Assembly: GCA_002205965.3 (NCBI GenBank)
Contig: NADL03000561.1
Location: 88,189-152,188, forward strand
Source of the DNA: Kappaphycus alvarezii
Lineage: Eukaryota; Rhodophyta; Florideophyceae; Gigartinales; Solieriaceae
Direction of reading: 5' to 3'
Length of the DNA stretch: 64,000 nucleotides
Part shown: in pieces, positions 16,861-64,000 of the stretch
Numbering within the stretch: the stretch's first letter is position 1
Layout of the letters: every line of letters starts with the position of its first letter
The notes under the pieces: generated by a model
What the model saw: the letters and a program-made list of their open reading frames with translations, nothing else
Database searches by the model: none
What the model was told of the DNA's origin: nothing
Made by a program: the position numbers and the translations under genes

Positions 16861-16899
16861 AAGTTGAAATTCCCTACCTTGACGTTGATCAGATCATTC

Positions 16900-17947: not shown

Positions 17948-18114
17948 TAGTTTACAGATGTTTATTCTAGGTCCCAGGATTCTAAAAGGCTTGGTGCGCG
18001 TAGATATGGTCCATTCGTGGTTAAGGAGCTAATTGGTAAGAATGCTGTTCGATTGGATCTCCCGCTCATTTTAGAATCCACCCAGTCATTCATATCATTC
18101 ACACCACACCACAT

Positions 18115-18393: not shown

Positions 18394-18411
18394 CGAGGAC
18401 GTCAATAGTCT

Positions 18412-18422
18412 GGGGGAGGGAA
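18412..18422 (+). other. Polypurine tract
   Basis: GGGGGAGGGAA lies directly upstream of the 3' LTR start at 18426, the expected site for second-strand priming. Confidence 0.8.
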
Positions 18423-18425
18423 TAG

Positions 18426-21692: not shown

Positions 21693-21960
21693 GAGTTCCG
21701 TTGTGATCGCAGACTGGAGCCTTTCGCCGGGGACCGGCGTCCGGCGAAGAACAACGCTCGAATAGAGCCAGTACCGGAGCGTAAATTACTTGTTCATGTA
21801 TGTACAGTACAGCCTCACGTGAGAACGTACTGTACAGTACAGTACGTACACTGAGCTATGTATTCATTTTAACTTCATGTTTTATAAAAGGCGTAAAAAC
21901 TTAGCTGACAGTGTAACCTAAGGTAGTTGAGGTTCGTCTCTGCTTGTGTCTATTGGACCG

Positions 21961-42668: not shown

Positions 42669-44150
42669 TCACTTCAATTTGCATGCGCAACACATTGAAG
42701 TGGAAACAAAATTAATTTTGAATAGGGTGGCTAAGTTCTGCTTGTTGCCGGGGTTGACATATTGCAGATGCCGCACATGTGGACCAAATAGCGTAACTGC
42801 GTTTCTGATACAGACGAGCTTCCCCCATAGAACAGCCGCTGCGAGACGCGACAGCTGCCACATAACTTCTCTATGACCTTCGATGCTGTCTCAGAAGGTG
42901 ATCCTAACGAGTCAAAAGCCAGCGGCACAAAATCATATCCTAACCTTGATCGTCCGGGCAGGACGTCGCCAGGAATGGCAGCCACTTTGGTTGCGAGGTC
43001 CCTCTTCCGCTTCTCTGCTGCGTTGGCAACGGCTCGCGCTTCTCGTGCTCCATTGACATATAACACTCCGGGAATGGCGAGGATATTGTGATGTCGTAGG
43101 CCACCGAGAGAAGGGACGGGGTGTTCAGTGCGTCGGACCGTGGGTGCACCAGAATATCCCCGGGTCGTACATTCAGCCCAAGGAGTAGGTATTTTACCTC
43201 GTATTGAACGCCAACTCCTGCTGCCTTGAACAGCTCTCACCCAAGTACTCTTACAACTGCCGTTTGCCGGTTGGTCCACCCGAGACCTTTGTTACAAAGG
43301 TCCGCTGCATGGTCTCCAAAGGGATCCATAGGCCTGTGGCACTCAGCGCACCGCAGCGGGCAGAGTCGTCAAACATGCGAACTCCTAGGTGACGGCGTAG
43401 CATCCCTGTCCACAACTCGTTGGACGTTCGGCTGACTACAGAAGGGTGTGCAGTGAGGAAGGCCCCTGGTTGCGTTTTCAGATATGGTTGACGTCGAATT
43501 CTTCGCCGGATATCTGCTTCTGAATGCGATGCGGGGTTTGGCAACCTCGTCCATTCATCGTCCTTCCAGAAGAACTTCGCTGCCGACTCACACCAGGCTC
43601 GATATAGTATATTGTGTGTACTATCGGGCTTGGCAGCGAGGCTGGCCGCGGTCAGTGTTCCTGGAGGGCTGCCATCATTAGTGAAGGGCGTAGGGAACCG
43701 TCGGACACACTCCCGGAGGTGTCTATTGGCTGCAGCATATCTATCCGCATGGTGTTCAGTCGGGCCACTGTCCGCAGGGCTTCGCAGCTGTTCGGCGTCA
43801 ATTATGCTCGCAGCATATGCTGCGAAATTGAGCGTCGCCAACGGTGTTAAGCCGTGGCCGCCGTTGCGGAGCGGTAAGGCTACCTGGTGTAGAACTGCAC
43901 CGGGCATCGGCACGTTGTTGGAGCTTGTGTAGAACTCGAATTGGTCATCGTCAAATCTCAGTGCAATTGCAGTGGTCACCTTCGGAGGAGTCAGCTTCAC
44001 CACATGTTGGAGCTTGCAAGCGGAGGCACATACCCGGTGAAGGTGGAACCGAATTCGAGCATCGATATCGTCGATCAGCGACAATGTCTGCTTGCAGCTT
44101 CTAATTTTCTCGTTGAGAAAATCCTCCATAAATTGATCGACCCAATTGGG
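42669..44150 (-). mobile_element. 3' part of a non-LTR retrotransposon (RT thumb plus endonuclease)
   Basis: The minus-strand frame 43251-44129 holds the end of a reverse transcriptase (VALPLRNGGHGLTPLATLNF, the G-G-x-G-L block typical of non-LTR enzymes). A linker follows. After a frame change near 43265 the next frames give VRPGDILVHPRSDALNTP and AYDITISSP, the endonuclease signature, then GYDFVPLAFDSLGSPSETAS near the C-terminus. The ~140 bp below 42840 are the 3' untranslated end. The reverse transcriptase core is missing, so it is 5' truncated as usual for such elements. Confidence 0.65.
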
Positions 44151-44231
44151 GCCCCAAGAAGGTCGATGCCATCGGTGGAAAAGTTCTCAAGTGGTATCCA
44201 TCAAGTTCCTATCATTGCATTGTGCACTCTA

Positions 44232-44350
44232 CTTTAAAAGTTGGAATTGGGTGACTAAGCTCTGAGTGTTGCGGTACGCGACGAATTATAGATGGTGCAC
44301 ATGTTGACCAGATTGAGTAGCTAGGCTTCTGATACAGACGAGTCTTCACC
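44232..44350 (-). repeat. Second copy of the non-LTR 3' end
   Basis: It resembles 42701-42825 over its whole length (shared AGGGTG-CTAAG, GCACATGTTGACCA-type and CTGATACAGACGAG blocks). It lies just upstream of the element above, so two insertions of one family may be arranged head to tail. Confidence 0.55.
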
Positions 44351-44589
44351 CCTCCCGTCGACTGTACTGTACAGTACTGTACATGTACAGTAGCGCGCTT
44401 TCTGGGTTCCAGTACTGTACTGCATCTCCCATGCCTTGTAGCTGAGATCCATACCCCTACTGTACTGTATGTAAAGGTATCATAATAGCTTACAGTATGT
44501 ACCTACATTTTCTATATACAGCCCCGTCCGCCGCCAGGAACTGCCGGTGCGACAGGAGGCAAGGGAAAAAGGAACAATTCCTCTCTACA

Positions 44590-44783: not shown

Positions 44784-46742
44784 CATGACAACCCCACCGT
44801 ATCTGTACCTACAATGACCGGAACCAACTATCATCTGTGGAAATTCCACATAGAAGAGTATACCGCCGAACATGGGGTTCTGGCAATACTAAACACCGAG
44901 CCGCTGCCACAACCATCGATCACGGACACATATCGGGGACTACAAGCAAAGGCAAGACGAGTTATCGCCTCATCCATTTCCGACGACATCCTCGATACCC
45001 TCCCTAGAACTTTTCTCCATCGCTCCTCAAAAGAGATGCAGGCGGAAGTAGACAATTTGTACGCAGCTGGCAAGACGCCGGGAAGAAATCTTGACCTCAT
45101 GGATCAAGCCCGCGAAACGACATTCACTCATTTGGACATCCTCGACACCTACCTCCATAAACATTTACAACCTTGTCGTCAAATGGCGGATGCAGACGTC
45201 CTGAGCATCTTATTCGAAGCCAAAACAATCAAATACATTATAAATGGACTACGCAACAACCCCAAACTCCATATCAACGTACCAATACTCCAAGGGGCCA
45301 GCATAGAAACAATTTAGAAGGCCAAGAAGACAATTAACTCCTACGTCCCATTCGCACCATCACAAGAACACACAACGCAGATTGCACACAACAAGGCAAC
45401 CACTAATAACATAAAATACTGTACATTTCACCAAAAATGAGGCCACCATGACACAGATAACTGCCATGCCACGCAACGGGTATCTGTACATTGGAATCTC
45501 CGACCCGCACAAGAAGGAGCTCTGCCGCCTGCTATACAAAGACTGGGGCTCCGCAAAGGACCCCACAGCATGCGGACCTGCTATGAAGACCAGGCCGCCT
45601 CGACATCGTGGCGCTCGCACCGCCCACATGACCAAATTCAATCACGGAATGGAGTATCCTCATCCAAATCATATGGAGTCCTAGCAGTCTACTTCGGCCA
45701 AAATTTCGCAGTAATGGACGTCGTTTTGACTCTTAGATCTTAGATTCTGCATGCTATCCATCCTTCTGCAAGAATCCTTCAACCGACTACACTCCGCATG
45801 TCTCAACGGTCAACATGTCAGATGGGTCGACATCTCGCACAAATGGGCACAAGGTGCAGACTCTATACACCTAACACGGTCAACCACGCATAATTACGCA
45901 TCTGGTGCACGCACCCATACTTCACGGACAACACCATGTCTGTGCCCCAGATAACGGCGAAAAATAACTGCGCGGTAATATTTACACCATCTGGGGGTTA
46001 TTTAACACCGATGAACATGCTTCCCAAACCCGAACTTATAATCACCCAAATAAAATTTCAGAAAGGCCACTATCGCATCCCGCTTACCACGGGGCTCCCA
46101 CTTTTGCATGCAGCAGGGATAACCTAACCCACAAGAACACTTAGGGAATACTTAAAAACGCGGAAGCCACCACAGAAAACGAAATACCTACGTTCAGAAA
46201 ATACACGGCGCCCCACCACAGACGAAAAGCTGAAGTTACTACCGGCACCCAATAAAAATCCTCGCCGCCACAGGAGGGACAAGACTACCCACATGGCCCC
46301 ATACCCCGCCCACCTGCTGTCACCCCGCCTCGCCAGTGCCGACTTGCCGGCCTCACCCATTATTGGCCCCTAAGGCTCAGCCACATAGCCCCTTCTAAGC
46401 TCAACAGTATGGTCAAACTCGATATCCCTCTCGGTTTACCTGCTCAACCTCACAACGGCACCACACCTCTCTACTGCAAGGGATGCTCGGTAGGACACTT
46501 CCAAAAAGAACCACACCAGCAACAGACAGTTTGCTATTCCCCGGTGACACTCTTGTTGCCGAAATCGCGGGGCCTTTTCCAAAGCCCCAGAAGAACAACA
46601 ATAATTACTCACAGTAACGGACTTACACAGTCGGATGACACATGTACACCTGCTACGACAATGCAAAGATGCCGATGATGCCCTACCAAGCGTGGATACC
46701 AATATTTCCAGACACTTTGGTACGACTGCCGCCCGCATCCCC
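44784..46742 (+). pseudogene. Copia Gag to integrase start, broken
   Basis: The Gag frame (44814-45317) begins MTGTNYHLWKFHIEEYTAEH, a UBN2-type Copia Gag. A small shift just before it separates it from ATG 44784. The knuckle is C-T-F-H...GHHDTDNC with a TGA at 45438-45440 in the middle. 45936-46127 may be protease. 46409-46530 gives TTPLYCKGCSVGHFQKEP (GAG-pre-integrase), then GPFPKPQKNNNNYS (integrase start). The sequence changes to telomere-like repeats at about 46749, before the second catalytic Asp. Confidence 0.65.
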
Positions 46743-46748
46743 TGTGAC

Positions 46749-46870
46749 TTAGGGTTTTTTTTGGGATTAGGGTTTTTTACAGGTTTTTTACAGGTTTTTA
46801 GGGGATTTGGGGGTTTTAGGGGTTTTAGGGGATTAGGGGATTTAGGGGATTTAGGGTTCTAGGGGTTTTA
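46749..46870 (+). repeat. Telomere-like tract T0 at the array start
   Basis: A degenerate run of TTAGGG, TTTTAGGGG, GATTAGGGG and GATTTAGGGG units, with a few poly-T and ACAGG interruptions at its left end. The G-rich strand is +. It joins the truncated Copia element on its left. Confidence 0.85.
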
Positions 46871-49009
46871 GTTACCGGCCTGGTGGGGATTTTGGTGACC
46901 GAGGGGATTTGTTGCACATGTTATTTATATGTTTCAATAAGGCTTGTATGGTCCTCGAAAGTGTTCAGGAGTGCTTGATTTTCTTTCTAACGAATGTTCA
47001 AGCCATAGAAGTAAAAATATTTTGGGTTATTGCATTTTTCGAAAATTTCGATTTTATCTATTTTTGTTGCGGTTGTACCGTTTTTTCTAGGAAATGGATT
47101 ACAGACCTATATTAACCCGTCATTATTTAAGAAATGAATGGAGTAGGCAGTTTATCACAACAATTTTATGAAAAAGTGTGCAAAGATAGCGTCATGCAGA
47201 CTCGTGGTGTTGCCATGTTTTAAGGCGGTTTTGACGGTAAACTCGATTTTGTGGAGTGTTTGTTCAATTAGAGCATTAATCTTGTGCTGAAGTGGTCCCT
47301 TGATAGTGGTACTCAGCGTCTATATTATATTTATGTGCTGCGATCATGGCCTACGTAGTGATACGGGTCGGGGCTACCTGAATTTTCCTACTAAATCCAT
47401 TTTTTGAGATTGCAGTGAAACCCGATGAAACGAACAGTTCCTATTAGTAAGGTTTATGTTGGATACAATGCAAGTCAAACTCTGCATAAAAGTGGCCAAT
47501 GCAAAAAACTTGCTCTCCAAGCGGAAGTGATGACGGCTCTGTTTGCGAACAAGTGATCCAATTTGCTCTTAGTGTGGTCTTGGGACCTTGTAATGTGAGC
47601 TGGATACAAAATTCGCTTTTAGCCGAAAAACTACGCAAGGAATCGTTAGTAGTAAGAAATTGGGTAAGGTTTCCTGAACATGAGGATCTGCTGAATATAC
47701 ATAGGTGACGCACTCAAAGCATTTGTTTATAAATTGCTTCCTAACTGAGAAAAGTAAAAACTGAATACCGTCTTGCCTTTATTGAATCCTTGAATCCACT
47801 TGGTAGAGAAATGATTTTTAAATTCTGATAAATGGAGCAGTTGGTATTAGTATGCCTTGTTTTCGGTGCGTGGAATGTAATGCTCCGGTGATTGGTTTCG
47901 ATAAAAAATGACACAGGGCGACCTTTTTTTTGTTTACTAGATCCATTTGGGGATAAATATGACTTGAAATCCGTTGGATTGCTTATATCACAAGAGTAGG
48001 AAGAGTATGATGTTGTCCGGGATGTAAGGATTTGGAGAATGTATTTATCTTCAATCAAGTCATTGGCTGGTTCAATGCTTCCTAAATGAGAAACGGGACG
48101 TACAAATACCTTATGGTCTTTATTCAATTTAGTTGATGCGTGTGTTTTCAGTTGCAACCTGATGAATACAGCAGATCACCTTAGTAAGTATTTGCATGGT
48201 GCTCGTAATGTGAGGCTCAGGCTAATGTGGGGGTGGGAATATATGCCTTGAAAAGTGTTGGAGCGATTGTCCTAAAAATTAATTTTTAAGGGACGCCCAG
48301 TTTGAGCCTTTCGAGCATGGATGGAGAGCTTTTATCGTTCTAATGAATATCAAAGGCTTACGCGATCTAGGAGTGAGAGTCATGTTGGAAGGAGGAATTT
48401 TGCCATTTACGTTCATACGGACTGCTTAAGAAACATAGGACTTATGGATAAATGACATTGAGGGCCATCCGCACTTGTTTCTAACTGACATGATGTAGCA
48501 ATGGTAAAGAGATTTTTGACCTCTACAAGGCTCATAGAACTTGAGCGTCATTCTAGGCTCTATTTCTATAAAAATGATCATGAAATCTATCACAAACGGC
48601 AGGGTTTTAGGGTATTTATTACAACAGAGAGATTGTAGTTTGCCATTCCTGGTCTTACTTGCAAAACAATGATCATAAAGTCTGCCTTGCATGGCCTTGA
48701 AATTTCAGTTCGGAATGAGAGAATTTGGAGCGAGCCTTCATTTCTGCATATTGTGTTTTGAAAGAAATGGCAGCGAAGATCATCCGGACATATTTCTATC
48801 TGACGTGATTTCACCATGCAAAAGAAGTTTTGGACAACAACGACTTTCTGTGAAATACAAAGTCCTTCCCGGTTCTGTTTACATAAAAATGACCATAACG
48901 TCCATCATATACGGCGGGGGATTCGTAGTGTGTAATTTTCGGTTCTACTTCCAAAAACATGTTCATAACGTCTAAAAAAACGACCAGGAGCTTGCGGGTT
49001 GCAATGGAG
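46871..49009 (+). repeat. Non-coding part of unit 1
   Basis: No frame is conserved between units (for example 47741-48157 and 48691-48975 are open only here), so I consider it non-coding. It contains degenerate ~0.3-kb internal repeats, described for unit 2. Confidence 0.7.
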
Positions 49010-49342
49010 AGAGTTCAGAGCAGGCTGCACATATAGTTCTTGGATTTAGGGGTTTTCAATTTGGGTTTCATTCTTGATTTCAGTTGCCACGTGTATATCA
49101 CAATTTTTAGAATTACAACTGTAAAATCAATAGTCAGTTACTATTTGCTTTGATTTGATTCTGCGCTTGCAATTAATTTGGGTACTTAAAGTCCAACGTT
49201 TTTCTTCCGTCTCTTCCTTCTCCCTCTCCAAACATATCCACATCTACCCTGCATCTCCACCCGCACCTATATCAGAATCAACAGATTATATTTCTCTACT
49301 AACTTAACTCGTTGCATACCTCTCTAAACATCTCTCTTCCAA
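49010..49342 (+). promoter_or_regulatory. Promoter and pyrimidine-rich leader of unit 1 gene
   Basis: It corresponds to 54190-54529: ATATAG motif, a TTTAGGGG motif, and a CT-rich stretch (CTTCCTTCTCCCTCTCC) before the ATG at 49343. Confidence 0.5.
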
Positions 49343-51995
49343 ATGGCGCAAATGTTCCGTGCCTGTTTTAGCATCAAGCAGCTCAACATCATCTCCGATG
49401 CGATGTCAGAGAAGGCTCTTCGTCCTGTCGATAATGCCACTGTCGAAGTTATTGCGGAGGACATGAAAAGTTTTGGTTTTGACCAAGCGAAGAGAGGAAC
49501 ATTTATCATGGAATCAAGACTTCGCATAGAGCTCACTTCAACGATGTCGCGCCCGGCTCTATGAAGGGAATGGTTTGGAACTTGAGCGCCAGGGAATTAG
49601 AAGCACTTCCATCCATAGATCTATGCACCTCACAAGCGGACGCCGAGTCGGATCTGAAAGAATTCATTTTTATTGATGGCCGTCACCGACACAGGAGCAT
49701 TGTTCAGGCCTTCTCCGATCGGGATGACATACTGGAAACGTACTTGTACTTTGATGTTTTCCTCAATATACCTACAAGCCAGGCCTTAGTGATGTCTTAC
49801 AACGCATCTCGCATTGCGAAATCGTCAGTTCCGTGCTTTCTCGACGAGTTAATCTGTATGGGAGGCCAGAAGTCCAAGGACCAATTACATTCTGCGATGA
49901 GGTTGTCGAAGAAACAGGTATCCGTTCTGAAGCATTTGAATGCCTGCATTACTCCCCTTTCACAGAGAGTGATCCAGCGTTGGCGCTCTTTGGGCCTCTT
50001 CTCGCTATCTAACATCATGGACAGGGGAAACAGAATGCTATGGACTCTTTTGCATGCTTTTTCGCCTGGTACCATCAGATTGACGATGATGCGAAGGGGA
50101 AGAAAGAGCGCACTTTGGTCATCTCTTCCCGCAGCTTCTATGTATTCTCATTCCCGTTTGATGTTGGCTATGCAAGGATTTTTGTTCGCCGCTATTGTTG
50201 TTGTCTACCGGCAGGTTCACAAGAAAAATGGCTCCTTAAGCGCCGCGGAGTTCTTGAAAGGGTATCCAGCAGCATTACGATCGCTATGCTGGATATACTA
50301 CCGAGATGGAAAGCCGAAAACAACAGTCTATCAGATGCACAGAAAATGTTTTGGGCGCTTTTTGTGACTTCGATTTCTTCCACTGCCCCATTTGATCAAG
50401 ATTTGGAACAAGCTCATTCTAAATTTCGCGAGGTGTTGCAGGGTGTGGGTTCGGTCGAATTTGCTTGTGAAGATCTTGCACCAGCAAAACATCTATTCGA
50501 CTCCATCCAGTCTCGTCTTTCCTCACCAGCTCGTGGCATGAAAATTGGGAAGGGCACAAAGAAGCCAGATGAAGCAACATCCCCCCAAAAAAGAAAATGC
50601 GAGTCGAAAGTCATGACGTATCTGACGTAATTGTTGAGGGGAAATCTCAAGAGGCTGCTGACGAAATCACCGAAACGATCTCCGAATACATACCAACGGG
50701 GAGTAGTCCCAACGTCATTGTTGCTCCGATCCCCCAAAACACCGTGGATACCAATCCAAAGCTCGAGGTGGTGGAACCTATTTTGAAAGTAAGGGAGAAA
50801 CGCGCCTCGGTCGCAAAGGTGGTACATCTTACGTCAAAAGAAGTTATGGGGAGGGAAAAGATTCTTCAAATATCTGATGATAGCGTTGGAAGCACGGACG
50901 AGAGTGTCTTGATGTTCGGAACGTGGAGAAAGTGAAGATGCATATGCCAGCACGTGAGGAAGCTGATGAAGAGGTTGCAGACCGAACCGAAGACGATGCT
51001 GCAATTATGATTCTGCCTTCAAGCGCCCGCAGGCACCGAGAAAATACTCATTTAAGTGTTAGAAAGACTCGGAGTAGCGAAAGGCTTCGCTCTAAAAGGG
51101 ACTTCTGCGATTCCCATCGCAGTAATGAGGTCAAGACGCAGCGCGAACAGGTCCCCTCGCAAAAGGCCAAACGAAAGAACTTCCCGGGAAAACGGGCATC
51201 TGAGCCTACCCCTCAACCGTCGAGTTCATGTGGACGTATTGATCCAGAAGTTCGACGCAAAATTGCGTGCGCCTCAAACTGTCTCGAGCTGGCTGATAAA
51301 TACCTACAACAAATCGAAATCGTTCAGGTATCGCAGCATGAAGAGAGAATTCTCGAAATCGAGCCGGAACCTCTCCACAATGGAGCGAAATGGATTGGCT
51401 TCTTCAAGTCCTATGATAACTGCTACGGACATACTGTCTCCGAAGTACTTGAAGAGATTTTCCTTAAGAACTATAACATGGAGTATGCCATAACAATGAA
51501 CGAGACTGCCGTTATGTCTCCTGAGAAGTCATTTGGAAATGGAAAGCTTAAATTATACTCTCAGACGATCGTTGTCTCGCCAGAGTTCGATGGGTCTTTG
51601 TCGAATATTGCTTCGACATGCATCTGCCACTTTTTGGTTTACGCTAATATCCTGAGATCCAAACATCGCTTAAAATTCAGTCGTTGAGCTCCGAGGGTTT
51701 AGAAAGTGACCTTCACGCATTTCTCAAATTGGAGTTTAGCAAAATCATGCAGAGATTCCCTCGTTATAAAATTCTCGACGTCACCGGCGAGGATACGGAG
51801 GTTCTCAAGGAATTTCTCACCGTGACCCGTCCATCATCTCCGACAGTTTTCCGAAAGGTCATGGCATGGGTGTTCGATGGCCGGAGGTCGACATCAATTG
51901 GGGTCTTCGAGGCGTTGAGATCTACTGTCCTGAAGAAGTGCCATTGTGGTGGTCATTCGGTCCTTGGAAAACATAATGAAGGTTTAGGGGATTAG
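49343..51995 (+). pseudogene. ParB-like array gene, copy 1 (most frameshifts)
   Basis: Same gene as copies 2 and 3. Relative to them it has lost single bases at about 49508 (GGG to GG), 50246 (CGGG to CGG), 50584 (C-run) and 50903 (GAAG to GAG). It shares the loss of a T near 51651 with copy 3. It does, however, read through the junction at about 50734 where copies 2 and 3 shift, showing that the two halves belong to one protein. The final frame (51684-51995) ends in EGLGD and its TAG lies within the telomere-like tract. Amino-acid differences from copies 2 and 3 include Trp for Cys and Pro for His in the mid region. Confidence 0.6.
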
Positions 51996-52062
51996 GGGAT
52001 TAGGGGTTTTTTAGGGGTTTTTTAGGGGTTTTTAGGGATTTAGGGGATTTAGGGGTTTTTTA
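51982..52062 (+). repeat. Telomere-like tract T1
   Basis: TTTAGGGGATTAGGGGATTA and following units with runs of 4-6 T. It provides the stop codon of copy 1 (51993-51995). Confidence 0.85.
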
Positions 52063-54189
52063 GTTACCGGCCTGGTGGGGATTTGGGTGGCCGAGGGATT
52101 TGTTGCACATGTTATTTATATGTTCCAATAAGGCTTGTATGGTCCTCGACAGTGTTCAGGAGTGCTTCATTGTCTTTCTGACAACAGTTGAAGGCATAGA
52201 AGTAAAAATATTTTGAGTTATGACAATTTTTCGAAAATGTCGATTTTGGCTATTTTTGATGCGGTTGTATCGTTTTGTCTAGGAAATGGATCACAGACCT
52301 ATATTAACCCGTTATTATTTAAGAAATGGATGAAGTAGGCAGTGTATTCACACTTTTATGAAAAAGTGTGCAAAGATAGCGTCATGCAGACTCGTGTGTT
52401 GCCATGTTTTAAGGCGGTTTTGACGGTAAACTCGATTTTGTGGAGTGTTTGTTCAATTAAAGCATTAATCTTGTGCTGAAGTGGTCCCTTGATAGTGGTA
52501 TTCAGCGTCTATATTATATTTGTGTGCTGCGATCATGGCCTACGCAGTGATATGGGTCGGGGCTACCTGATTTTCCCTACTATATCCATTTTTTGGGATT
52601 GCAGTGAAAATCGATGAAACGAACAGTTGATATTAGTAAGGTTTATGTTGGATACGCTGCAAGTCAAACTCTGCATAAAAGTGGCCAATGCAAAAAACTT
52701 GCTCTTTAAGCGGAATTGATGACGGCTCTGTTTGCGAACAAGTGATCCAATGTGCTCTTAGTGTGTTCTTGGGACCTTGTAAAGTGAGCTGGATACAAAT
52801 TCGCTTTTATCCGAAAAACTCCGCAAGGAATCGTTAGTAGTAAGAAATTGGGTAAGGTTTCCTGAACACGAGGATCTGCTGAATTTACATAGGTGACGCA
52901 CTCAAAGCATTTGTTTATAAATTGCTTCCTAACTGAGAAAAGTAAAAACTGAATACCGTCTTGCCTTTATTGAATCCTTGAATCCATTTGGTAGAGAAAT
53001 AATTCCTAAATCCTGATAAATGGAGCAGTTGGTATTAGTATGCCTTGTTTTCGGTGCGTGGAATGTAATGCTCCGGTGATTGGTGTCGATAAAAAATGAC
53101 ACAGAGCGACCTTTTGTGTTTACTAGATCCATTTGGGGATAAATATCACTTGAAATCCGTTGGATTGCTTATATCACAAGAGTAGGAAAAGTATGATGCT
53201 GTCCGGGATGTAAGGATTTGGAGAATGTATTTGTCTTTAATCAAGTCATTGCTGGTTCAATGCTTCCTAAATGAGAAACGTGACGTACAAATACCTTATG
53301 GTCTTTATTCAATTTAGTTGATGCGTGTGTTTTCAGTTGCAACCTGATGAATACAGCAGATCACCTTAGTAAGTATTTGCATGGTGCTCATAATGTGAGG
53401 TTCAGGCTAATGGTGGGGTGGGAATATATGCCTTGAAATCCGTTGGAGCGATTGTCCTCAAAATGAATTTTTAAGGGACGCCCAGTGTGAGCCTTTCGAG
53501 CATGGATGGAGAGCTTTTATCGTTCTGATGAATATCAAAGTCTTACGCGATCTAGGAGTGAGAGTCATGTTGGAAGGAGGAATTTTGCCATTTACGTTCA
53601 TACGGACTGCTTAAGAAACATAGGACTTATGGATAAATGACATTGAGGGCCATCCGCACTTGTTTCTAACTGACATGATGTAGCAATGGTAAAGAGATTT
53701 TTGACCTCTACAAGGCTCATAGAACTTGAGCGTCATTTAGGCTCTATTTCTATAAAAATGATCATGAAATCTATCACAAACGGCAGGGTTTTAGCGTATT
53801 TATTACAACAGAGAGATTGTAGTTTGCCATTACTGGTCTTACTTGCAAAACAATGATCATAAAGTCTACCTTGCATGGCCTTGAAATTTCAGTTCGGAAT
53901 GAGAGAATTTGGAGCGAGCCGTCATTTCTGTATATTGTGTTTTGAAATAAATGGCAGCGAAGATCATCCGGACATATTTCTATCTGACATGATTTCACCA
54001 TGCAAAGAGGTTTTGGACAACAACGACTTTCTGTGAAATACAAAGTCTTTCCCGGTTCTGTTTACATAAAAATGACCATAACGTCCATCATATACGGCGG
54101 GGTATTCGTAGTAGTGTGTAATGTTCGGTTCTACTTCCAAAAACATGTCCATAACGTCTAAAAAAAACGACCAGGAGCTGGCGGGTTGC
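52063..54189 (+). repeat. Non-coding part of unit 2, with degenerate ~0.3-kb repeats
   Basis: Internal similarities: 52921-52975 with 53261-53312 (TGCTTCCTAA-TGAGAAA... to CTTTATTGAAT/CTTTATTCAAT), 53140-53165 with 53425-53450 (CTTGAAATCCGTTGGA), and 53640-53690 with 53955-54000 (CATCCG-AC...TTTCTA-CTGACATGAT). Spacings are about 285-340 bp. So part of the spacer grew by duplication of a ~0.3-kb module. A minus-strand 89-codon frame (53774-54043) is the same in unit 3 but broken in unit 1. Confidence 0.6.
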
Positions 54190-54529
54190 AATGGAGAGAG
54201 TTCAGAGCAGGCTGCGTATATAGTTCTTGGATTTAGGGGTTTTCAATTTGGGTTTCATTCTTGATTTCAGTTGCCACGTGTATATCACAATTTTTAGAAT
54301 TACAACTGTAAAATCAATAGTCAGTTACTATTTGCTTTGATTTGATTCTGCGCTTGCAATTAATTTGGGTACTTAAAGTCCAACGTTTTTCTTCCGTCTC
54401 TTCCTTCTCCCTCTCCAAACATATCCACATCTACCCTGCATCTCCACCCGCACCTATATCAGAATCAACAGATTATATTTCTCTACTAACTTAACTCGTT
54501 GCATACCTCTCTAAACATCTCTCTTCCAA
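54190..54529 (+). promoter_or_regulatory. Promoter and pyrimidine-rich leader of unit 2 gene
   Basis: TATATAG at 54217-54223, an isolated GGATTTAGGGGTTTT telomere-like motif at 54229-54243, and a CT-rich region (54392-54418 and 54430-54455) followed by a second CT-rich run just before the ATG at 54530. CT-rich leaders are typical of fungal transcription starts. Sequence is conserved in all three units. Confidence 0.5.
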
Positions 54530-55975
54530 ATGGCGCAAATGTTCCGTGCCTGTTTTAGCATCAAGCAGCTCAACATCATCTCCGATGCGATGTCAGAGAA
54601 GGCTCTTCGTCCTGTCGATAATGCCACTGTCGAAGTTATTGCGGAGGACATGAAAAGTTTTGGTTTTGACCAAGCGAAGAGAGGAACATTTATCATGGGA
54701 ATCAAGACTTCGCATAGAGCTCACTTCAACGATGTCGCGCCCGGCTCTATGAAGGGAATGGTTTGGAACTTGAGCGCCAGGGAATTAGAAGCACTTCCAT
54801 CCATAGATCTATGCACCTCACAAGCGGACGCCGAGTCGGATCTGAAAGAATTCATTTTTATTGATGGCCGTCACCGACACAGGAGCATTGTTCAGGCCTT
54901 CTCCGATCGGGATGACATACTGGAAACGTACTTGTACTTTGATGTTTTCCTCAATATACCTACAAGCCAGGCCTTAGTGATGTCTTACAACGCATCTCGC
55001 ATTGCAAAATCGTCAGTTCCGTGCTTTCTCGACGAGTTGATCTGTATGAGAGGCCAGAAGTCCAAGCACGAATTACATTCTGCGATGAGGTTGTCGAAGA
55101 AACAGGTATCCGTTCTGAAGCATTTGAATGCCTGCATTACTCCCCTTTCACAGAGAGTGATCCAGCGTTGGCGCTCTTTGGGCCTCTTCTCGCTATCTAA
55201 CATCATGGACAGGGGAAACAGAATGCTATGGACTCTTTTGCATGCTTTTTCGCCTGGTACCATCAGATTGACGATGATGCGAAGGGGAAGAAAGAGCGCA
55301 CTTTGCTCATCTCTTCACGCAGCTTCTTTGTATTCTCATTCCCGTTTGATGTTGGCTATGCAAGGATTTGTGTTCGCCGCTATTGTTGTTGTCTACCGGC
55401 AGGTTCACAAGAAAAATGGCTCCTTAAGCGCCGCGGGAGTTCTTGAAAGGGTATCCAGCAGCATTACGATCGCTATGCTGGATATACTACCGAGATGGAA
55501 AGCCGAAAACAACAGTCTATCAGATGCACAGAAAATGTTTTGGGCGCTTTTTGTGACTTCGATTTCTTCCACTGCCCCATTTGATCAAGATTTGGAACAA
55601 GCTCATTCTAAATTTCGCGAGGTGTTGCAGGGTGTGGGTTCGGTCGAATTTGCTTGTGAAGATCTTGCACCAGCAAAACATCTATTCGACTCCATCCAGT
55701 CTCGTCTTTCCTCACCAGCTCGTGGCATGAAAATTGGGAAGGGCACAAAGAAGCCAGATGAAGCAACATCCCCTCCAAAAAAGAAAATGCGAGTCGAAAG
55801 TCATGACGTATCTGACGTAATTGTTGAGGGGAAATCTCAAGAGGCTGCTGACGAAATCACCGAAACGATCTCCGAATACATACCAAAGGGGAGTAGTCCC
55901 AACGTCATTGTTGCTCCGATCCCCCAAATACCGTGGATACCAATCCAAAGCTCGAGGTGGTGGAACCTATTTTGA
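54530..55975 (+). CDS. ParB-like nuclear protein of the array, copy 2, 5' frame (481 aa)
   Basis: Residues ~26-60 (LRPVDNATVEVIAEDMKSFG) and ~107-122 (EFIFIDGRHRHRSIVQAF) match the start and the G-x-x-R core of the ParB/sulfiredoxin fold. YLYFDVFLNIPTSQALVMSY follows, then N-A-S-R, as in ParB proteins. Residues ~180-230 (LHSAMRLSKKQVSVLKHLNA, then QRWRSLGLFSLSNIMD) resemble the ParB helix-turn-helix. A basic PPKKKMRVE near residue 420 is an SV40-like nuclear signal. So it is probably a nuclear DNA-binding protein; ATP/CTP use is not shown. The last 15 residues are out of frame: the shift at about 55926 (CCCCCAAATACC) cuts it from its 3' half. No family name is certain. Confidence 0.65.
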   Translation: MAQMFRACFSIKQLNIISDAMSEKALRPVDNATVEVIAEDMKSFGFDQAKRGTFIMGIKTSHRAHFNDVAPGSMKGMVWNLSARELEALPSIDLCTSQADAESDLKEFIFIDGRHRHRSIVQAFSDRDDILETYLYFDVFLNIPTSQALVMSYNASRIAKSSVPCFLDELICMRGQKSKHELHSAMRLSKKQVSVLKHLNACITPLSQRVIQRWRSLGLFSLSNIMDRGNRMLWTLLHAFSPGTIRLTMMRRGRKSALCSSLHAASLYSHSRLMLAMQGFVFAAIVVVYRQVHKKNGSLSAAGVLERVSSSITIAMLDILPRWKAENNSLSDAQKMFWALFVTSISSTAPFDQDLEQAHSKFREVLQGVGSVEFACEDLAPAKHLFDSIQSRLSSPARGMKIGKGTKKPDEATSPPKKKMRVESHDVSDVIVEGKSQEAADEITETISEYIPKGSSPNVIVAPIPQIPWIPIQSSRWWNLF

Positions 55976-57108
55976 AAGTAAGGGAAAAACGCGCCTCGGT
56001 CGCAAAGGTGGTACATCTTACGTCAAAAGAAGTTATGGGGAGGGAAAAGATTCTTCAAATATCTGATGATAGCGTTGGAAGCACGGACGAGAAGTGTCTT
56101 GATGTTCGGAACGTGGAGAAAGTGAAGATGCATATGCCAGCACGTGAGGAAGCTGATGAAGAGGTTGCAGACCGAACCGAAGACGATGCTGCAATTATGA
56201 TTCTGCCTTCAAGCGCCCGCAGGCACCGAGAAAATACTCATTTAAGTGTTAGAAAGACTCGGAGTAGCGAAAGGCTGCGCTCTAAAAGGGACTTCTGCGA
56301 TTCCCATCGCAGTAATGAGGTCAAGACGCAGCGCGAACAGGTCCCCTCGCAAAAGGCCAAACGAAAGAACTTCCCGGGAAAACGGGCATCTGAGCCTACC
56401 CCTCAACCGTCGAGTTCATGTGGACGTATTGATCCAGAAGTTCGACGCAAAATTGCGTGCGCCTCAAACTGTCTCGAGCTGGCTGATAAATACCTACAAC
56501 AAATCGAAATCGTTCAGGTATCGCAGCATGAAGAGAGAATTCTCGAAATCGAGCCGGAACCTCTCCACAATGGAGCGAAGTGGATTGGCTTCTTCAAGTC
56601 CTATGATAACTGCTACGGACATACTGTCTCCGAAGTACTTGAAGAGATTTTCCTTAAGAACTATAACATGGTGTATGCCATAACAATGAACGAGACTGCC
56701 GTTATGTCTCCTGAGAAGTCATTTGGAAATGGAAAGCTTAAATTATACTCTCAGACGATCGTTGTCTCGCCAGAGTTCGATGGGTCTTTGTCGAATATTG
56801 CTTCGACATGCATCTGCCACTTTTTGGTTTACGCTAATATTCCTGAGATCCAAACATCGCTTAAAATTCAGTCGTTGAGCTCCGAGGGTTTAGAAAGTGA
56901 CCTTCACGCATTTCTCAAATTGGAGTTTAGCAAAATCATGCAGAGATTCCCTCGTTATAAAATTCTCGACGTCACCGGCGAGGATACGGAGGTTCTCAAG
57001 GAATTTCTCACCGTGACCCGTCCATCATCTCCGACAGTTTTCCGAAAGGTCATGGCATGGGTGTTCGATGGCCGGAGGTCGACATCAATTGGGTCTTCGA
57101 GGCGTTGA
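55933..57108 (+). CDS. Array gene copy 2, 3' frame (391 aa)
   Basis: This continues the protein of the 5' frame (the halves are joined in copy 1). It has a Lys/Glu/Asp-rich linker with serine/arginine patches (TRSSERLRSKRDFC, KAKRKNFPGKRA). A folded-looking part follows: KIACASNCLELADKYLQQIE, KWIGFFKSYDNCYGHTVSEV, YAITMNETAVMSPEKSFGNG, then IASTCICHFLVYANIPEIQT and FLKLEFSKIMQRFPRYKILD. I recognise no domain in this half. Of the three copies only this one reads through the T-run at 56840. A lost G near 57092 gives an early stop (GSSRR) shortly before the telomere-like tract. Confidence 0.6.
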   Translation: MDTNPKLEVVEPILKVREKRASVAKVVHLTSKEVMGREKILQISDDSVGSTDEKCLDVRNVEKVKMHMPAREEADEEVADRTEDDAAIMILPSSARRHRENTHLSVRKTRSSERLRSKRDFCDSHRSNEVKTQREQVPSQKAKRKNFPGKRASEPTPQPSSSCGRIDPEVRRKIACASNCLELADKYLQQIEIVQVSQHEERILEIEPEPLHNGAKWIGFFKSYDNCYGHTVSEVLEEIFLKNYNMVYAITMNETAVMSPEKSFGNGKLKLYSQTIVVSPEFDGSLSNIASTCICHFLVYANIPEIQTSLKIQSLSSEGLESDLHAFLKLEFSKIMQRFPRYKILDVTGEDTEVLKEFLTVTRPSSPTVFRKVMAWVFDGRRSTSIGSSRR

Positions 57109-57172
57109 GATCTATTGTCCTGAAGAAGTGCCATTGTGGTGGTCATTCGGTCCTTGGAAAACATAATGAAGG

Positions 57173-57252
57173 TTTTAGGGATTAGGGGATTAGGGGTTTT
57201 TAGGGGTTTTTTTAGGGGTTTTTAGGGGATTTAGGGGATTTAGGGGTTTTTA
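57173..57252 (+). repeat. Telomere-like tract T2
   Basis: TTTTAGGGATTAGGGGATTA and similar units between copy 2 and unit 3. Confidence 0.85.
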
Positions 57253-59369
57253 GTTACCGGCCTGGTGGGGATTTGGGTGGCCGAGGGATTTGTTGCACAT
57301 GTTATTTATATGTTCCAATAAGGCTTGTATGGTCCTCGACAGTGTTCAGGAGTGCTTCATTGTCTTTCTGACAACAGTTGAAGCATAGAAGTAAAAATAT
57401 TTTGAGTTATGACAATTTTTCGAAAATGTCGATTTTGGCTATTTTTGATGCGGTTGTATCGTTTTTCTAGGAAATGGATCACAGACCTATATTAACCCGT
57501 TATTATTTAAGAAATGGATGAAGTAGGCAGTGTATACAACACTTTTATGAAAAAGTGTGCAAAGATAGCGTCATGCAGACTCTTGGTGTTGCCATGTTTT
57601 AAGGCGGTTTTGACGGTAAACTCGATTTTGTGGAGTGTTTGTTCAATTAAAGCATTAATCTTGTGCTGAAGTGGTCCCTTGATAGTGGTATTCAGCGTCT
57701 ATATTATATTTGTGTGCTGCGATCATGGCCTACGCAGTGATATGGGTCGGGGCTACCTGATTTTCCCTACTATATCCATTTTTTGGGATTGCAGTGAAAA
57801 TCGATGAAACGAACAGTTGATATTAGTAAGGTTTATGTTGGATACGCTGCAAGTCAAACTCTGCATAAAAGTGGCCAATGCAAAAAACTTGCTCTTTAAG
57901 CGGAATTGATGACGGCTCTGTTTGCGAACAAGTGATCCAATGTGCTCTTAGTGTGTTCTTGGGACCTTGTAAAGTGAGCTGGATACAAATTCGCTTTTAT
58001 CCGAAAAACTCCGCAAGGAATCGTTAGTAGTAAGAAATTGGGTAAGGTTTCCTGAACACGAGGATCTGCTGAATTTACATAGGTGACGCACTCAAAGCAT
58101 TTGTTTATAAATTGCTTCCTAACTGAGAAAAGTAAAAACTGAATACCGTCTTGCCTTTATTGAATCCTTGAATCCATTTGGTAGAGAAATAATTCCTAAA
58201 TCCTGATAAATGGAGCAGTTGGTATTAGTATGCCTTGTTTTCGGTGCGTGGAATGTAATGCTCCGGTGATTGGTGTCGATAAAAAATGACACAGAGCGAC
58301 CTTTTGTGTTTACTAGATCCATTTGGGGATAAATATGACTTGAAATCCGTTGGATTGCTTATATCACAAGAGTAGGAAAAGTATGATGCTGTCCGGGATG
58401 TAAGGATTTGGAGAATGTATTTGTCTTTAATCAAGTCATTGCTGGTTCAATGCTTCCTAAATGAGAAACGTGACGTACAAATACCTTATGGTCTTTATTC
58501 AATTTAGTTGATGCGTGTGTTTTCAGTTGCAACCTGATGAATACAGCAGATCACCTTAGTAAGTATTTGCATGGTGCTCGTAATGTGAGGTTCAGGCTAA
58601 TGGTGGGGTGGGAATATATGCCTTGAAATCCGTTGGAGCGATTGTCCTCAAAATGAATTTTTAAGGGACGCCCAGTGTGAGCCTTTCGAGCATGGATGGA
58701 GAGCTTTTATCGTTCTGATGAATATCAAAGTCTTACGCGATCTAGGAGTGAGAGTCATGTTGGAAGGAGGAATTTTGCCATTTACGTTCATACGGACTGC
58801 TTAAGAAACATAGGACTTATGGATAAATGACATTGAGGGCCATCCGCACTTGTTTCTAACTGACATGATGTAGCAATGGTAAAGAGATTTTTGACCTCTA
58901 CAAGGCTCATAGAACTTGAGCGTCATTTAGGCTCTATTTCTATAAAAATGATCATGAAATCTATCACAAACGGCAGGGTTTTAGCGTATTTATTACAACA
59001 GAGAGATTGTAGTTTGCCATTACTGGTCTTACTTGCAAAACAATGATCATAAAGTCTACCTTGCATGGCCTTGAAATTTCAGTTCGGAATGAGAGAATTT
59101 GGAGCGAGCCGTCATTTCTGTATATTGTGTTTTGAAATAAATGGCAGCGAAGATCATCCGGACATATTTCTATCTGACATGATTTCACCATGCAAAGAGG
59201 TTTTGGACAACAACGACTTTCTGTGAAATACAAAGTCTTTCCCGGTTCTGTTTACATAAAAATGACCATAACGTCCATCATATACGGCGGGTTCGTAGTA
59301 GTGTGTAATTCGGTTCTACTTCCAAAAACATGTCATAACGTCTAAAAAAACGACCAGGAGCTGGCGGGT
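57253..59369 (+). repeat. Non-coding part of unit 3
   Basis: Nearly identical to 52063-54189. Small differences include a shorter GCGGGTTCG stretch at 59287 where unit 2 has GCGGGGTATTCG. Confidence 0.75.
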
Positions 59370-59712
59370 TGCAATGGAGAGAGTTCAGAGCAGGCTGCGT
59401 ATATAGTTCTTGGATTTAGGGGTTTTCAATTTGGGTTTCATTCTTGATTTCAGTTGCCACGTGTATATCACAATTTTTAGAATTACAACTGTAAAATCAA
59501 TAGTCAGTTACTATTTGCTTTGATTTGATTCTGCGCTTGCAATTAATTTGGGTACTTAAAGTCCAACGTTTTTCTTCCGTCTCTTCCTTCTCCCTCTCCA
59601 AACATATCCACATCTACCCTGCATCTCCACCCGCACCTATATCAGAATCAACAGATTATATTTCTCTACTAACTTAACTCGTTGCATACCTCTCTAAACA
59701 TCTCTCTTCCAA
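59370..59712 (+). promoter_or_regulatory. Promoter and pyrimidine-rich leader of unit 3 gene
   Basis: Same sequence as 54190-54529: TATATAG near 59400, TTTAGGGG motif, CT-rich leader, ATG at 59713. Confidence 0.5.
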
Positions 59713-61158
59713 ATGGCGCAAATGTTCCGTGCCTGTTTTAGCATCAAGCAGCTCAACATCATCTCCGATGCGATGTCAGAGAAGGCTCTTCGTCCTGTCG
59801 ATAATGCCACTGTCGAAGTTATTGCGGAGGACATGAAAAGTTTTGGTTTTGACCAAGCGAAGAGAGGAACATTTATCATGGGAATCAAGACTTCGCATAG
59901 AGCTCACTTCAACGATGTCGCGCCCGGCTCTATGAAGGGAATGGTTTGGAACTTGAGCGCCAGGGAATTAGAAGCACTTCCATCCATAGATCTATGCACC
60001 TCACAAGCGGACGCCGAGTCGGATCTGAAAGAATTCATTTTTATTGATGGCCGTCACCGACACAGGAGCATTGTTCAGGCCTTCTCCGATCGGGATGACA
60101 TACTGGAAACGTACTTGTACTTTGATGTTTTCCTCAATATACCTACAAGCCAGGCCTTAGTGATGTCTTACAACGCATCTCGCATTGCAAAATCGTCAGT
60201 TCCGTGCTTTCTCGACGAGTTGATCTGTATGAGAGGCCAGAAGTCCAAGCACGAATTACATTCTGCGATGAGGTTGTCGAAGAAACAGGTATCCGTTCTG
60301 AAGCATTTGAATGCCTGCATTACTCCCCTTTCACAGAGAGTGATCCAGCGTTGGCGCTCTTTGGGCCTCTTCTCGCTATCTAACATCATGGACAGGGGAA
60401 ACAGAATGCTATGGACTCTTTTGCATGCTTTTTCGCCTGGTACCATCAGATTGACGATGATGCGAAGGGGAAGAAAGAGCGCACTTTGCTCATCTCTTCA
60501 CGCAGCTTCTTTGTATTCTCATTCCCGTTTGATGTTGGCTATGCAAGGATTTGTGTTCGCCGCTATTGTTGTTGTCTACCGGCAGGTTCACAAGAAAAAT
60601 GGCTCCTTAAGCGCCGCGGGAGTTCTTGAAAGGGTATCCAGCAGCATTACGATCGCTATGCTGGATATACTACCGAGATGGAAAGCCGAAAACAACAGTC
60701 TATCAGATGCACAGAAAATGTTTTGGGCGCTTTTTGTGACTTCGATTTCTTCCACTGCCCCATTTGATCAAGATTTGGAACAAGCTCATTCTAAATTTCG
60801 CGAGGTGTTGCAGGGTGTGGGTTCGGTCGAATTTGCTTGTGAAGATCTTGCACCAGCAAAACATCTATTCGACTCCATCCAGTCTCGTCTTTCCTCACCA
60901 GCTCGTGGCATGAAAATTGGGAAGGGCACAAAGAAGCCAGATGAAGCAACATCCCCTCCAAAAAAGAAAATGCGAGTCGAAAGTCATGACGTATCTGACG
61001 TAATTGTTGAGGGGAAATCTCAAGAGGCTGCTGACGAAATCACCGAAACGATCTCCGAATACATACCAAAGGGGAGTAGTCCCAACGTCATTGTTGCTCC
61101 GATCCCCAAAATACCGTGGATACCAATCCAAAGCTCGAGGTGGTGGAACCTATTTTGA
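59713..61158 (+). CDS. ParB-like nuclear protein of the array, copy 3, 5' frame (481 aa)
   Basis: Identical to copy 2 except one residue near the C-terminal end (Lys for Gln in API-P-x-IP). It carries the same ParB-like core, helix-turn-helix-like segment and PPKKKMRVE signal. It shifts frame at about 61109 (CCCCAAAATACC). Confidence 0.65.
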   Translation: MAQMFRACFSIKQLNIISDAMSEKALRPVDNATVEVIAEDMKSFGFDQAKRGTFIMGIKTSHRAHFNDVAPGSMKGMVWNLSARELEALPSIDLCTSQADAESDLKEFIFIDGRHRHRSIVQAFSDRDDILETYLYFDVFLNIPTSQALVMSYNASRIAKSSVPCFLDELICMRGQKSKHELHSAMRLSKKQVSVLKHLNACITPLSQRVIQRWRSLGLFSLSNIMDRGNRMLWTLLHAFSPGTIRLTMMRRGRKSALCSSLHAASLYSHSRLMLAMQGFVFAAIVVVYRQVHKKNGSLSAAGVLERVSSSITIAMLDILPRWKAENNSLSDAQKMFWALFVTSISSTAPFDQDLEQAHSKFREVLQGVGSVEFACEDLAPAKHLFDSIQSRLSSPARGMKIGKGTKKPDEATSPPKKKMRVESHDVSDVIVEGKSQEAADEITETISEYIPKGSSPNVIVAPIPKIPWIPIQSSRWWNLF

Positions 61159-62059
61159 AAGTAAGGGAAAACGCGCCTCGGTCGCAAAGGTGGTACATCT
61201 TACGTCAAAAGAAGTTATGGGGAGGGAAAAGATTCTTCAAATATCTGATGATAGCGTTGGAAGCACGGACGAGAAGTGTCTTGATGTTCGGAACGTGGAG
61301 AAAGTGAAGATGCATATGCCAGCACGTGAGGAAGCTGATGAAGAGGTTGCAGACCGAACCGAAGACGATGCTGCAATTATGATTCTGCCTTCAAGCGCCC
61401 GCAGGCACCGAGAAAATACTCATTTAAGTGTTAGAAAGACTCGGAGTAGCGAAAGGCTGCGCTCTAAAAGGGACTTCTGCGATTCCCATCGCAGTAATGA
61501 GGTCAAGACGCAGCGCGAACAGGTCCCCTCGCAAAAGGCCAAACGAAAGAACTTCCCGGGAAAACGGGCATCTGAGCCTACCCCTCAACCGTCGAGTTCA
61601 TGTGGACGTATTGATCCAGAAGTTCGACGCAAAATTGCGTGCGCCTCAAACTGTCTCGAGCTGGCTGATAAATACCTACAACAAATCGAAATCGTTCAGG
61701 TATCGCAGCATGAAGAGAGAATTCTCGAAATCGAGCCGGAACCTCTCCACAATGGAGCGAAGTGGATTGGCTTCTTCAAGTCCTATGATAACTGCTACGG
61801 ACATACTGTCTCCGAAGTACTTGAAGAGATTTTCCTTAAGAACTATAACATGGTGTATGCCATAACAATGAACGAGACTGCCGTTATGTCTCCTGAGAAG
61901 TCATTTGGAAATGGAAAGCTTAAATTATACTCTCAGACGATCGTTGTCTCGCCAGAGTTCGATGGGTCTTTGTCGAATATTGCTTCGACATGCATCTGCC
62001 ACTTTTTGGTTTACGCTAATATCCTGAGATCCAAACATCGCTTAAAATTCAGTCGTTGA
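61159..62059 (+). CDS. Array gene copy 3, middle frame
   Basis: The open frame extends back to 61004, but residues encoded before 61167 are a shadow of the 5' frame. One A is missing at about 61166 (GGGAAAAC against GGGAAAAAC), bringing this frame into the true reading (KRASVAKVVHLTSKEV). It matches copy 2 until a T is lost near 62022 and ends NILRSKHRLKFSR at 62059. Confidence 0.55.
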
Positions 62060-62376
62060 GCTCCGAGGGTTTAGAAAGTGACCTTCACGCATTTCTCAAA
62101 TTGGAGTTTAGCAAAATCATGCAGAGATTCCCTCGTTATAAAATTCTCGACGTCACCGGCGAGGATACGGAGGTTCTCAAGGAATTTCTCACCGTGACCC
62201 GTCCATCATCTCCGACAGTTTTCCGAAAGGTCATGGCATGGGTGTTCGATGGCCGGAGGTCGACATCAATTGGGGTCTTCGAGGCGTTGAGATCTATTGT
62301 CCTGAAGAAGTGCCATTGTGGTGGTCATTCGGTCCTTGGAAAACATAATGAAGGTTTTAGGGGATTAGGGGATTAG
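62056..62376 (+). CDS. Array gene copy 3, C-terminal frame ending in telomere-like DNA
   Basis: It continues SSEGLESDLHAFLKLEFSK to VFRKVMAWVFDGRRSTSIGV, then KKCHCGGHSVLGKHNEGFRG-LGD. The last residues and the TAG (62374-62376) are encoded by GGTTTTAGGGGATTAGGGGA-type repeats. The gene therefore has no stop of its own and is probably truncated at its 3' end. Confidence 0.6.
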   Translation: MSSEGLESDLHAFLKLEFSKIMQRFPRYKILDVTGEDTEVLKEFLTVTRPSSPTVFRKVMAWVFDGRRSTSIGVFEALRSIVLKKCHCGGHSVLGKHNEGFRGLGD

Positions 62377-62436
62377 GGGTTTTTTAGGGGTTTTTTTAGG
62401 GGTTTTTAGGGGATTTAGGGATTTAGGGGTTTTTTA
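62354..62436 (+). repeat. Telomere-like tract T3
   Basis: TTTTAGGGGATTAGGGGATT followed by T-runs separated by AGGGG. Followed by GTTACCGGCCTGG, the start of the fourth unit. Confidence 0.85.
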
Positions 62437-64000
62437 GTTACCGGCCTGGTGGGGATTTGGGTGGCCGAGGGGATTTGTTGCACATGTTATTTATATGTTC
62501 CAATAAGGCTTGTATGGTCCTCGACAGTGTTCAGGAGTGCTTCATTGTCTTTCTGACAACAGTTGAAGGCATAGAAGTAAAAATATTTTGAGTTATGACA
62601 ATTTTTCGAAAATGTCGATTTTGGCTATTTTTGATGCGGTTGTATCGTTTTGTCTAGGAAATGGATCACAGACCTATATTAACCCGTTATTATTTAAGAA
62701 ATGGATGAAGTAGGCAGTGTATTACAACACTTTTATGAAAAAGTGTGCAAAGATAGCGTCATGCAGACTCTTGGTGTTGCCATGTTTTAAGGCGGTTTTG
62801 ACGGTAAACTCGATTTTGTGGAGTGTTTGTTCAATTAAAGCATTAATCTTGTGCTGAAGTGGTCCCTTGATAGTGGTATTCAGCGTCTATATTATATTTG
62901 TGTGCTGCGATCATGGCCTACGCAGTGATATGGGTCGGGGCTACCTGATTTTCCCTACTATATCCATTTTTTGGGATTGCAGTGAAAATCGATGAAACGA
63001 ACAGTTGATATTAGTAAGGTTTATGTTGGATACGCTGCAAGTCAAACTCTGCATAAAAGTGGCCAATGCAAAAAACTTGCTCTTTAAGCGGAATTGATGA
63101 CGGCTCTGTTTGCGAACAAGTGATCCAATGTGCTCTTAGTGTGTTCTTGGGACCTTGTAAAGTGAGCTGGATACAAATTCGCTTTTATCCGAAAAACTCC
63201 GCAAGGAATCGTTAGTAGTAAGAAATTGGGTAAGGTTTCCTGAACACGAGGATCTGCTGAATTTACATAGGTGACGCACTCAAAGCATTTGTTTATAAAT
63301 TGCTTCCTAACTGAGAAAAGTAAAAACTGAATACCGTCTTGCCTTTATTGAATCCTTGAATCCATTTGGTAGAGAAATAATTCCTAAATCCTGATAAATG
63401 GAGCAGTTGGTATTAGTATGCCTTGTTTTCGGTGCGTGGAATGTAATGCTCCGGTGATTGGTGTCGATAAAAAATGACACAGAGCGACCCTTTTGTGTTT
63501 ACTAGATCCATTTGGGGATAAATATCACTTGAAATCCGTTGGATTGCTTATATCACAAGAGTAGGAAAAGTATGATGCTGTCCGGGATGTAAGGATTTGG
63601 AGAATGTATTTGTCTTTAATCAAGTCATTGCCTGGTTCAATGCTTCCTAAATGAGAAACGTGACGTACAAATACCTTATGGTCTTTATTCAATTTAGTTG
63701 ATGCGTGTGTTTTCAGTTGCAACCTGATGAATACAGCAGATCACCTTAGTAAGTATTTGCATGGTGCTCATAATGTGAGGTTCAGGCTAATGGTGGGGTG
63801 GGAATATATGCCTTGAAATCCGTTGGAGCGATTGTCCTCAAAATGAATTTTTAAGGGACGCCCAGTGTGAGCCTTTCGAGCATGGATGGAGAGCTTTTAT
63901 CGTTCTGATGAATATCAAAGTCTTACGCGATCTAGGAGTGAGAGTCATGTTGGAAGGAGGAATTTTGCCATTTACGTTCATACGGACTGCTTAAGAAACA
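62437..64000 (+). repeat. Non-coding part of unit 4 (cut by the window end)
   Basis: Nearly identical to 52063-53620 and 57253-58810. Its gene would start about 890 bp beyond the window if the period holds (near 64895). Confidence 0.75.

Follow-up and report, generated by a model that had tools for sequence, protein, structure and literature searches.

The window analysed here is a 64,000-nucleotide stretch of the Kappaphycus alvarezii contig NADL03000561.1, whose right quarter holds a tandem array in which short, putatively telomeric TTTAGGGG-like tracts alternate with copies of one long gene (Table 1). Four such tracts, starting at positions 46749, 51983, 57173 and 62355, delimit three complete units of ~5.18 kb (U1, U2 and U3) and the start of a fourth (U4). 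The units lie head to tail, and the G-rich strand of all four tracts is the + strand. A complete unit consists of a tract (~80 bp, 123 bp in the first), then a ~2.47-kb spacer and a ~2.6-kb gene on the + strand, while U4 is cut by the window end inside its spacer, before any gene. The tract edges were set by us and give lengths of 123, 80, 81 and 83 bp. The TTTAGGGG motif occurs 23 times on the two strands of the window, against 1.72 expected and a maximum of 6 among 100 shuffles; all 23 copies are on the + strand and 19 lie within the four tracts. The others are found at a matching spot of U1, U2 and U3 (49045, 54232 and 59415) and at 35244, and every 100-bp segment (step 50, + strand) with at least two TTAGGG overlaps a tract. 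These counts and the unit alignment bear out the sequence-only reading of this DNA, which had described four tracts dividing ~5.18-kb units. The one + strand gene per unit that it described is seen in the three complete units, U4 ending in its spacer.

Table 1 Features of the tandem array and its inner flank, in window positions.
Feature	Coordinates	Strand	Remarks
Decayed stretch on the inner side of tract 1	44814-46748	+	167-aa open reading frame (ORF) 44814-45317, then short frames; ends where tract 1 starts
Unit U1	46797-51981		from 46749 if the irregular tract start is included
Tract 1	46749-46871	+	123 bp; most irregular of the TTTAGGGG-like tracts
U1 spacer	46872-49342	+	with the tract, first 1.6 kb diverged 5.8% from U2
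U1 gene copy	49343-51995	+	several frame breaks; last frame runs into tract 2, stop TAG 51993-51995
Unit U2	51983-57172
Tract 2	51983-52062	+	80 bp
U2 spacer	52063-54529	+
U2 gene, first piece	54530-55975	+	481 aa
U2 gene, second piece	55933-57108	+	391 aa, other frame
Unit U3	57173-62353
Tract 3	57173-57253	+	81 bp; variant order as in tract 2
U3 spacer	57254-59712	+
U3 gene copy, in pieces	59713-62376	+	481 aa (59713-61158), 351 aa (61004-62059), followed by a change of frame; final frame runs into tract 4, stop TAG 62374-62376
Unit U4, partial	from 62354
Tract 4	62355-62437	+	83 bp; variant order as in tracts 2 and 3
U4 spacer, incomplete	62438-64000	+

Tracts 2, 3 and 4 share one order of eight repeat variants and differ only in the lengths of T or G runs. 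The variants comprise T3-4AG3-4, ATTAG4 twice, T5-7AG3-4 three times and ATTTAG3-4 twice, and all three tracts pass alike into T5-6AGTTACCGG. Tract 1 has a different order and a more irregular start, and its last part is similar to tracts 2-4. With the variant classes set by hand, 1680 orders are possible, or 420 if both T-run classes are merged, which makes independent synthesis of tracts 2-4 unlikely. The common order indicates that the tract was copied along with the unit rather than made by separate insertions, and the distal tracts 2-4 are best read as copies of one another. In a published description, identical tracts between units are a mark of D-loop or rolling-circle copying as opposed to serial transposition or breakage (PMC7367193). 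The shared order adds evidence for recombination-type copying; the sequence-only reading had suggested an array possibly maintained by recombination at telomeres.

U2 and U3 are 99.5% identical, and U1 is 97.2-97.3% identical to both; U4, represented by 1.6 kb only, is 99.3-99.4% identical to U2 and U3 and 93.9% identical to U1. Between U1 and U2, 95 of 1631 positions differ in the tract and first 1.6 kb (5.8%), 15 of 905 in the next 0.9 kb (1.7%), 16 of 2574 in the gene (0.6%) and 1 of 63 after the gene. The 16 gene substitutions, two of which are not in U3, comprise 5 synonymous and 11 nonsynonymous changes, with 22% of the possible changes being synonymous. No signal of purifying selection on the gene is seen in this comparison of U1 with U2, in which the numbers are small (n = 16 substitutions) and errors may contribute. 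In view of the low divergence of the gene without constraint at the protein level, we read the gradient as regional homogenisation and not as selection. With the tract left out, U1 departs from U2 and U3 at 103 columns where these two agree; a C-to-T bias in U1 was looked for and not seen, transitions making up 52 of the 103 substitutions. Among U2, U3 and U4 (its first 1.6 kb), the alignment outside the tract has 6 columns with substitutions and 19 with indels, and the substitution columns 372, 373 and 3957 are probably alignment effects beside indels.

As assembled, the frame of the gene is broken in all three copies; in U2 it falls into pieces of 481 and 391 aa in different frames. The longest stop-free run in U2 spans 486 codons against a maximum of 253 in 500 first-order simulations, indicating genuine coding sequence or something recently derived from it. 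All indels between the gene copies are single-base and most lie within short one-base runs, which suggests consensus error. The frame break that closes the 481-aa piece is common to U2 and U3, and U1 has four one-base losses absent from both, so true mutations may also occur. In U1 and U3, the last gene frame stays open into the next tract, where the TAG of the telomere-like repeat is its stop codon. The repeat is 8 bases long and contains TAG, so that every frame soon meets a stop and the tract could close any frame that enters it. By eye, the region upstream of the gene is CT-rich and the gene product has basic stretches. A ParB-like motif noticed by eye in the gene found no support, and AlphaFold2 models were too poor to use, with a mean predicted local distance difference test score of 36.1 for the first piece and 33.5 for the 225 C-terminal residues.

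We searched for relatives of the gene among ~5.8 billion proteins, using a prefilter on common 5-residue words and on length. The libraries searched are largely prokaryotic or metagenomic, so a family confined to eukaryotes could be missed; the window's own genome may also be absent from them. With the first piece of the gene as query, none of 6512 candidates reached E ≤ 1, nor did any of 2476 with the second piece, or any of the best 7990 candidates when the first piece was placed within a longer query, which admits longer candidates. Viral contigs gave 4 and 1 pattern matches, none of them confirmed, and the edge pattern gave 0; 20 pattern matches of the first piece in GTDB genome contigs were likewise not confirmed. 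Pfam, NCBIfam and PHROGs yielded nothing significant for the gene pieces (best PHROG E 0.11); the best Pfam scores, also not significant, were IBB at E 4.7 (P0002) and Adipokin_hormo at E 0.1 (P0004), and no significant match to a reverse transcriptase (RT), a transposase or a helicase, including the RecQ type, was found. Among PDB sequences, the best match of the first piece had E 0.79 and the second piece had none up to E 5. The U2 spacer contains degenerate internal repeats, and its six frames gave no Pfam match at E ≤ 1. Its first 1.56 kb has a T+G content of 57%, a value also reached by 7 of 452 sliding segments of positions 1-46748. A tRNA scan with bacterial settings found none, and Rfam gave no match at gathering scores.

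Taken with the tract order, these features lead us to favour, with slightly more confidence than doubt, a reading in which a chromosome end was copied from a circle or through a D-loop into a subtelomeric tandem array that carries an unrelated orphan gene. The template would have been an end made up of an inner telomeric tract, the spacer, the gene and the telomere. It could have served as a circle arising from recombination between two tracts, or a short end could have folded back and invaded the inner tract. Each round of copying would add one unit together with its tract, and the tracts would afterwards offer homology for more gain, loss and exchange. The gene would be a passenger whose downstream edge, a telomeric tract, may be the source of its stop codon. 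Such an edge is expected if a break in or just after the gene was healed by telomere addition. U1 is innermost, differs in tract order and is the most diverged, as expected for an older unit next to recent copies. Near-identical units with identical interstitial tracts, a feature resembling Type I alternative lengthening of telomeres (ALT), are found for U2-U4 except for run lengths, U1 being the exception. Telomere-bounded repeat arrays are reported to accompany telomere failure in Pyricularia (PMC8381367), and telomerase-negative Naumovozyma is described as forming arrays with identical units (PMC12408736).

We presume that the TTTAGGGG-like tracts are telomeric. Among the titles and abstract openings listed in literature searches, none gave a species with TTTAGGGG as its main telomere repeat; the repeat reported for the chytrid B. 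dendrobatidis is TTAGGG (PMC11797018). Several points weigh against the favoured reading. The frame in U2 ends at 57106-57108, ~65 bases short of the tract, which limits the telomeric stop to two of the three copies. In addition, the units form a mosaic at three columns, where U1 agrees with U2 and U3 with U4 (418) or U1 with U3 and U2 with U4 (1175 and 1419). These conflicting groupings point to exchange or to a template longer than one unit. A one-unit circle alone cannot yield them; they call for a two-unit template, for exchange at a later stage or for consensus error. Finally, plain unequal exchange would also give exactly copied tracts.

This last point belongs to an explanation that we regard as possible though rather unlikely, namely that ordinary unequal exchange or gene conversion acted in an old subtelomeric repeat. 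An inner tract and unit would have undergone one duplication, after which the array grew and its units were homogenised, with neither telomere crisis nor circle. Identical tracts are a prediction of this explanation too, and both the mosaic sites and the U1-U2 gradient from 5.8% through 1.7% to 0.6% resemble conversion tracts. By itself, however, unequal exchange leaves the origin of the first telomeric tract between units unexplained. One window cannot tell it apart from the copying of a chromosome end.

The interpretation made from sequence alone is supported in part: the array, the uniform direction of its G-rich strand, and the likeness in arrangement to the Y' elements of Saccharomyces cerevisiae, with a different gene, all find support. 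That strand direction would place the presumed chromosome end to the right. According to one report (PMC13177704), Y' elements are subtelomeric, ~5.2-6.7 kb long, tandem and often separated by tracts, and their ORF is mostly intact with a variable first half; here, the proximal unit differs mainly in the spacer. The same report gives Y' a putative helicase, an autonomously replicating sequence and 36-mer repeats, whereas the gene pieces and U2 spacer of the array have no helicase match, and it places a tract at 145 of 234 Y' tandem junctions, compared with three of three here. Y' is not the sole precedent, since MoTeR arrays are arranged likewise, as is the 4-kb, telomere-bounded repeat of foxtail Pyricularia. 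Both are said to expand when telomeres fail. The 4-kb arrays of foxtail Pyricularia oryzae and the MoTeR arrays that are amplified in TERT knock-outs are described as multi-kb tandem units with interstitial telomere tracts near chromosome ends (PMC8381367). The 4-kb repeat is also said to have a coding region, although for another gene, the one here being an orphan. MoTeR1 and MoTeR2 are described as lying head to tail in arrays, with a telomere tract separating one copy from the next. MoTeR1, as described, codes for an RT and also has a putative restriction-like endonuclease domain, while the array unit has no RT match. The described MoTeR tracts vary widely in length, whereas tracts 2-4 here have the same variant order and tract 1 differs, and the 5' ends of telomeric MoTeR elements are reported to lie nearest the chromosome end, whereas the gene here reads toward the presumed end. 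ALT cells of Naumovozyma castellii have TelKO arrays that are similar in their identical higher-order units, identical telomeric segments and T+G-rich strand but are described with a 325-bp unit and 75-82% T+G (PMC12408736), compared with the 57% of the first 1.56 kb of the U2 spacer here. Telomere-linked helicase (TLH) genes are defined by a RecQ-type helicase domain. The gene pieces of the array differ from them in having no RecQ-type helicase match in Pfam. In summary, the array appears to work like the Y', Pyricularia, MoTeR and TelKO arrays, yet lacks two defining features that we tested, the helicase of Y' and the variable tracts of serially inserted MoTeRs.

We also considered, as a speculative and improbable alternative, a telomere-dependent selfish element whose only gene encodes an orphan, perhaps nuclear protein with its frame closed by the telomere repeat. 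It would spread between chromosome ends as telomere-bounded circles or arrays, with no RT or helicase of its own, and, if this is true, its transcript would enter the G-rich telomeric strand, like telomeric repeat-containing RNA (TERRA). Successive insertions of a telomere-targeted mobile element into telomeric repeats, comparable to MoTeR2, which is thought to depend on MoTeR1, seem very doubtful. The sharp edges at telomere-like DNA and the head-to-tail order do resemble MoTeR arrays, and the window contains two fragments (43251-44186 and 20877-21785, - strand) that we presume by eye to be of non-LTR (long terminal repeat) type and that align weakly with each other; however, no significant RT, transposase or other domain match was found in the gene pieces or in the six frames of the U2 spacer, and the variant order common to three tracts speaks against separate insertions. 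Highly improbable, too, is a selfish linear element, extrachromosomal or virus-like, whose ends are telomeric and which became arrayed at chromosome ends and uses the orphan protein for its own replication or segregation: the telomere-bounded one-gene unit, the orphan gene and the CT-rich and basic stretches would fit, while there is no viral relative, no significant family match and no sign of purifying selection in the U1-U2 comparison. An assembly artefact, in which the assembler inflated a shorter array or joined units, deserves hardly any credence, since the 103 U1-specific columns require at least two different units and the tract run lengths differ, even though many one-base indels suggest a noisy long-read consensus and U2-U4 are nearly alike.

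On the inner side of tract 1, by eye, the decayed stretch may be a copia-like gag followed by the start of an integrase. It gave no significant Pfam match (best NETI, E 0.35), and PDB sequences gave nothing below E 3.6 for its last frame. If the inner flank is copia-like and its integrase was the site of breakage, the broken end would presumably have been capped with telomeric repeats. Farther inward, a Gypsy-type LTR element at 12666-18853 is bounded by 429-bp repeats (12666-13094 and 18425-18853) that are 99.3% identical. It matches Ty3 capsid, RT, RNase H and the integrase zinc-binding domain in several frames, and its integrase-core match is under the cut-off. Taken by themselves, this retroelement content and the gene structure would have pointed to a eukaryote, probably a fungus or a fungus-like protist. 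The - strand carries a DDE_1 transposase piece at 38259-39092 (E 5e-07 for 38259-38681; 9e-09 with stops as X), a Major facilitator transporter gene split across two overlapping frames at 41157-42646, and a 383-aa ORF at 19165-20316 with a signal-like start by eye and no Pfam match at E ≤ 0.01. The ORFs at 43251-44186 and 20877-21785 had no Pfam match, and their mutual alignment is weak (34% over 32 aa, E 0.005); by eye, we tentatively take them for C-terminal portions of non-LTR retroelements bearing a restriction-like endonuclease. By eye, TACTGTAC-type motifs are dispersed in seemingly non-coding DNA at 1-3000 and 44340-44480.

The cited cases of arrays whose units each carry a telomeric tract come from yeasts and the blast fungus (PMC8381367, PMC7367193, PMC13177704, PMC12408736). 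Adding an array with an unrelated gene to these cases would suggest that chromosome ends are copied from circles or through D-loops in nature and that no particular gene is required for it. The order of variants within the tracts offers a test of copying versus transposition that needs nothing beyond sequence, and a gene with a telomeric stop codon would be an unusual example of telomere addition shaping the end of a protein.
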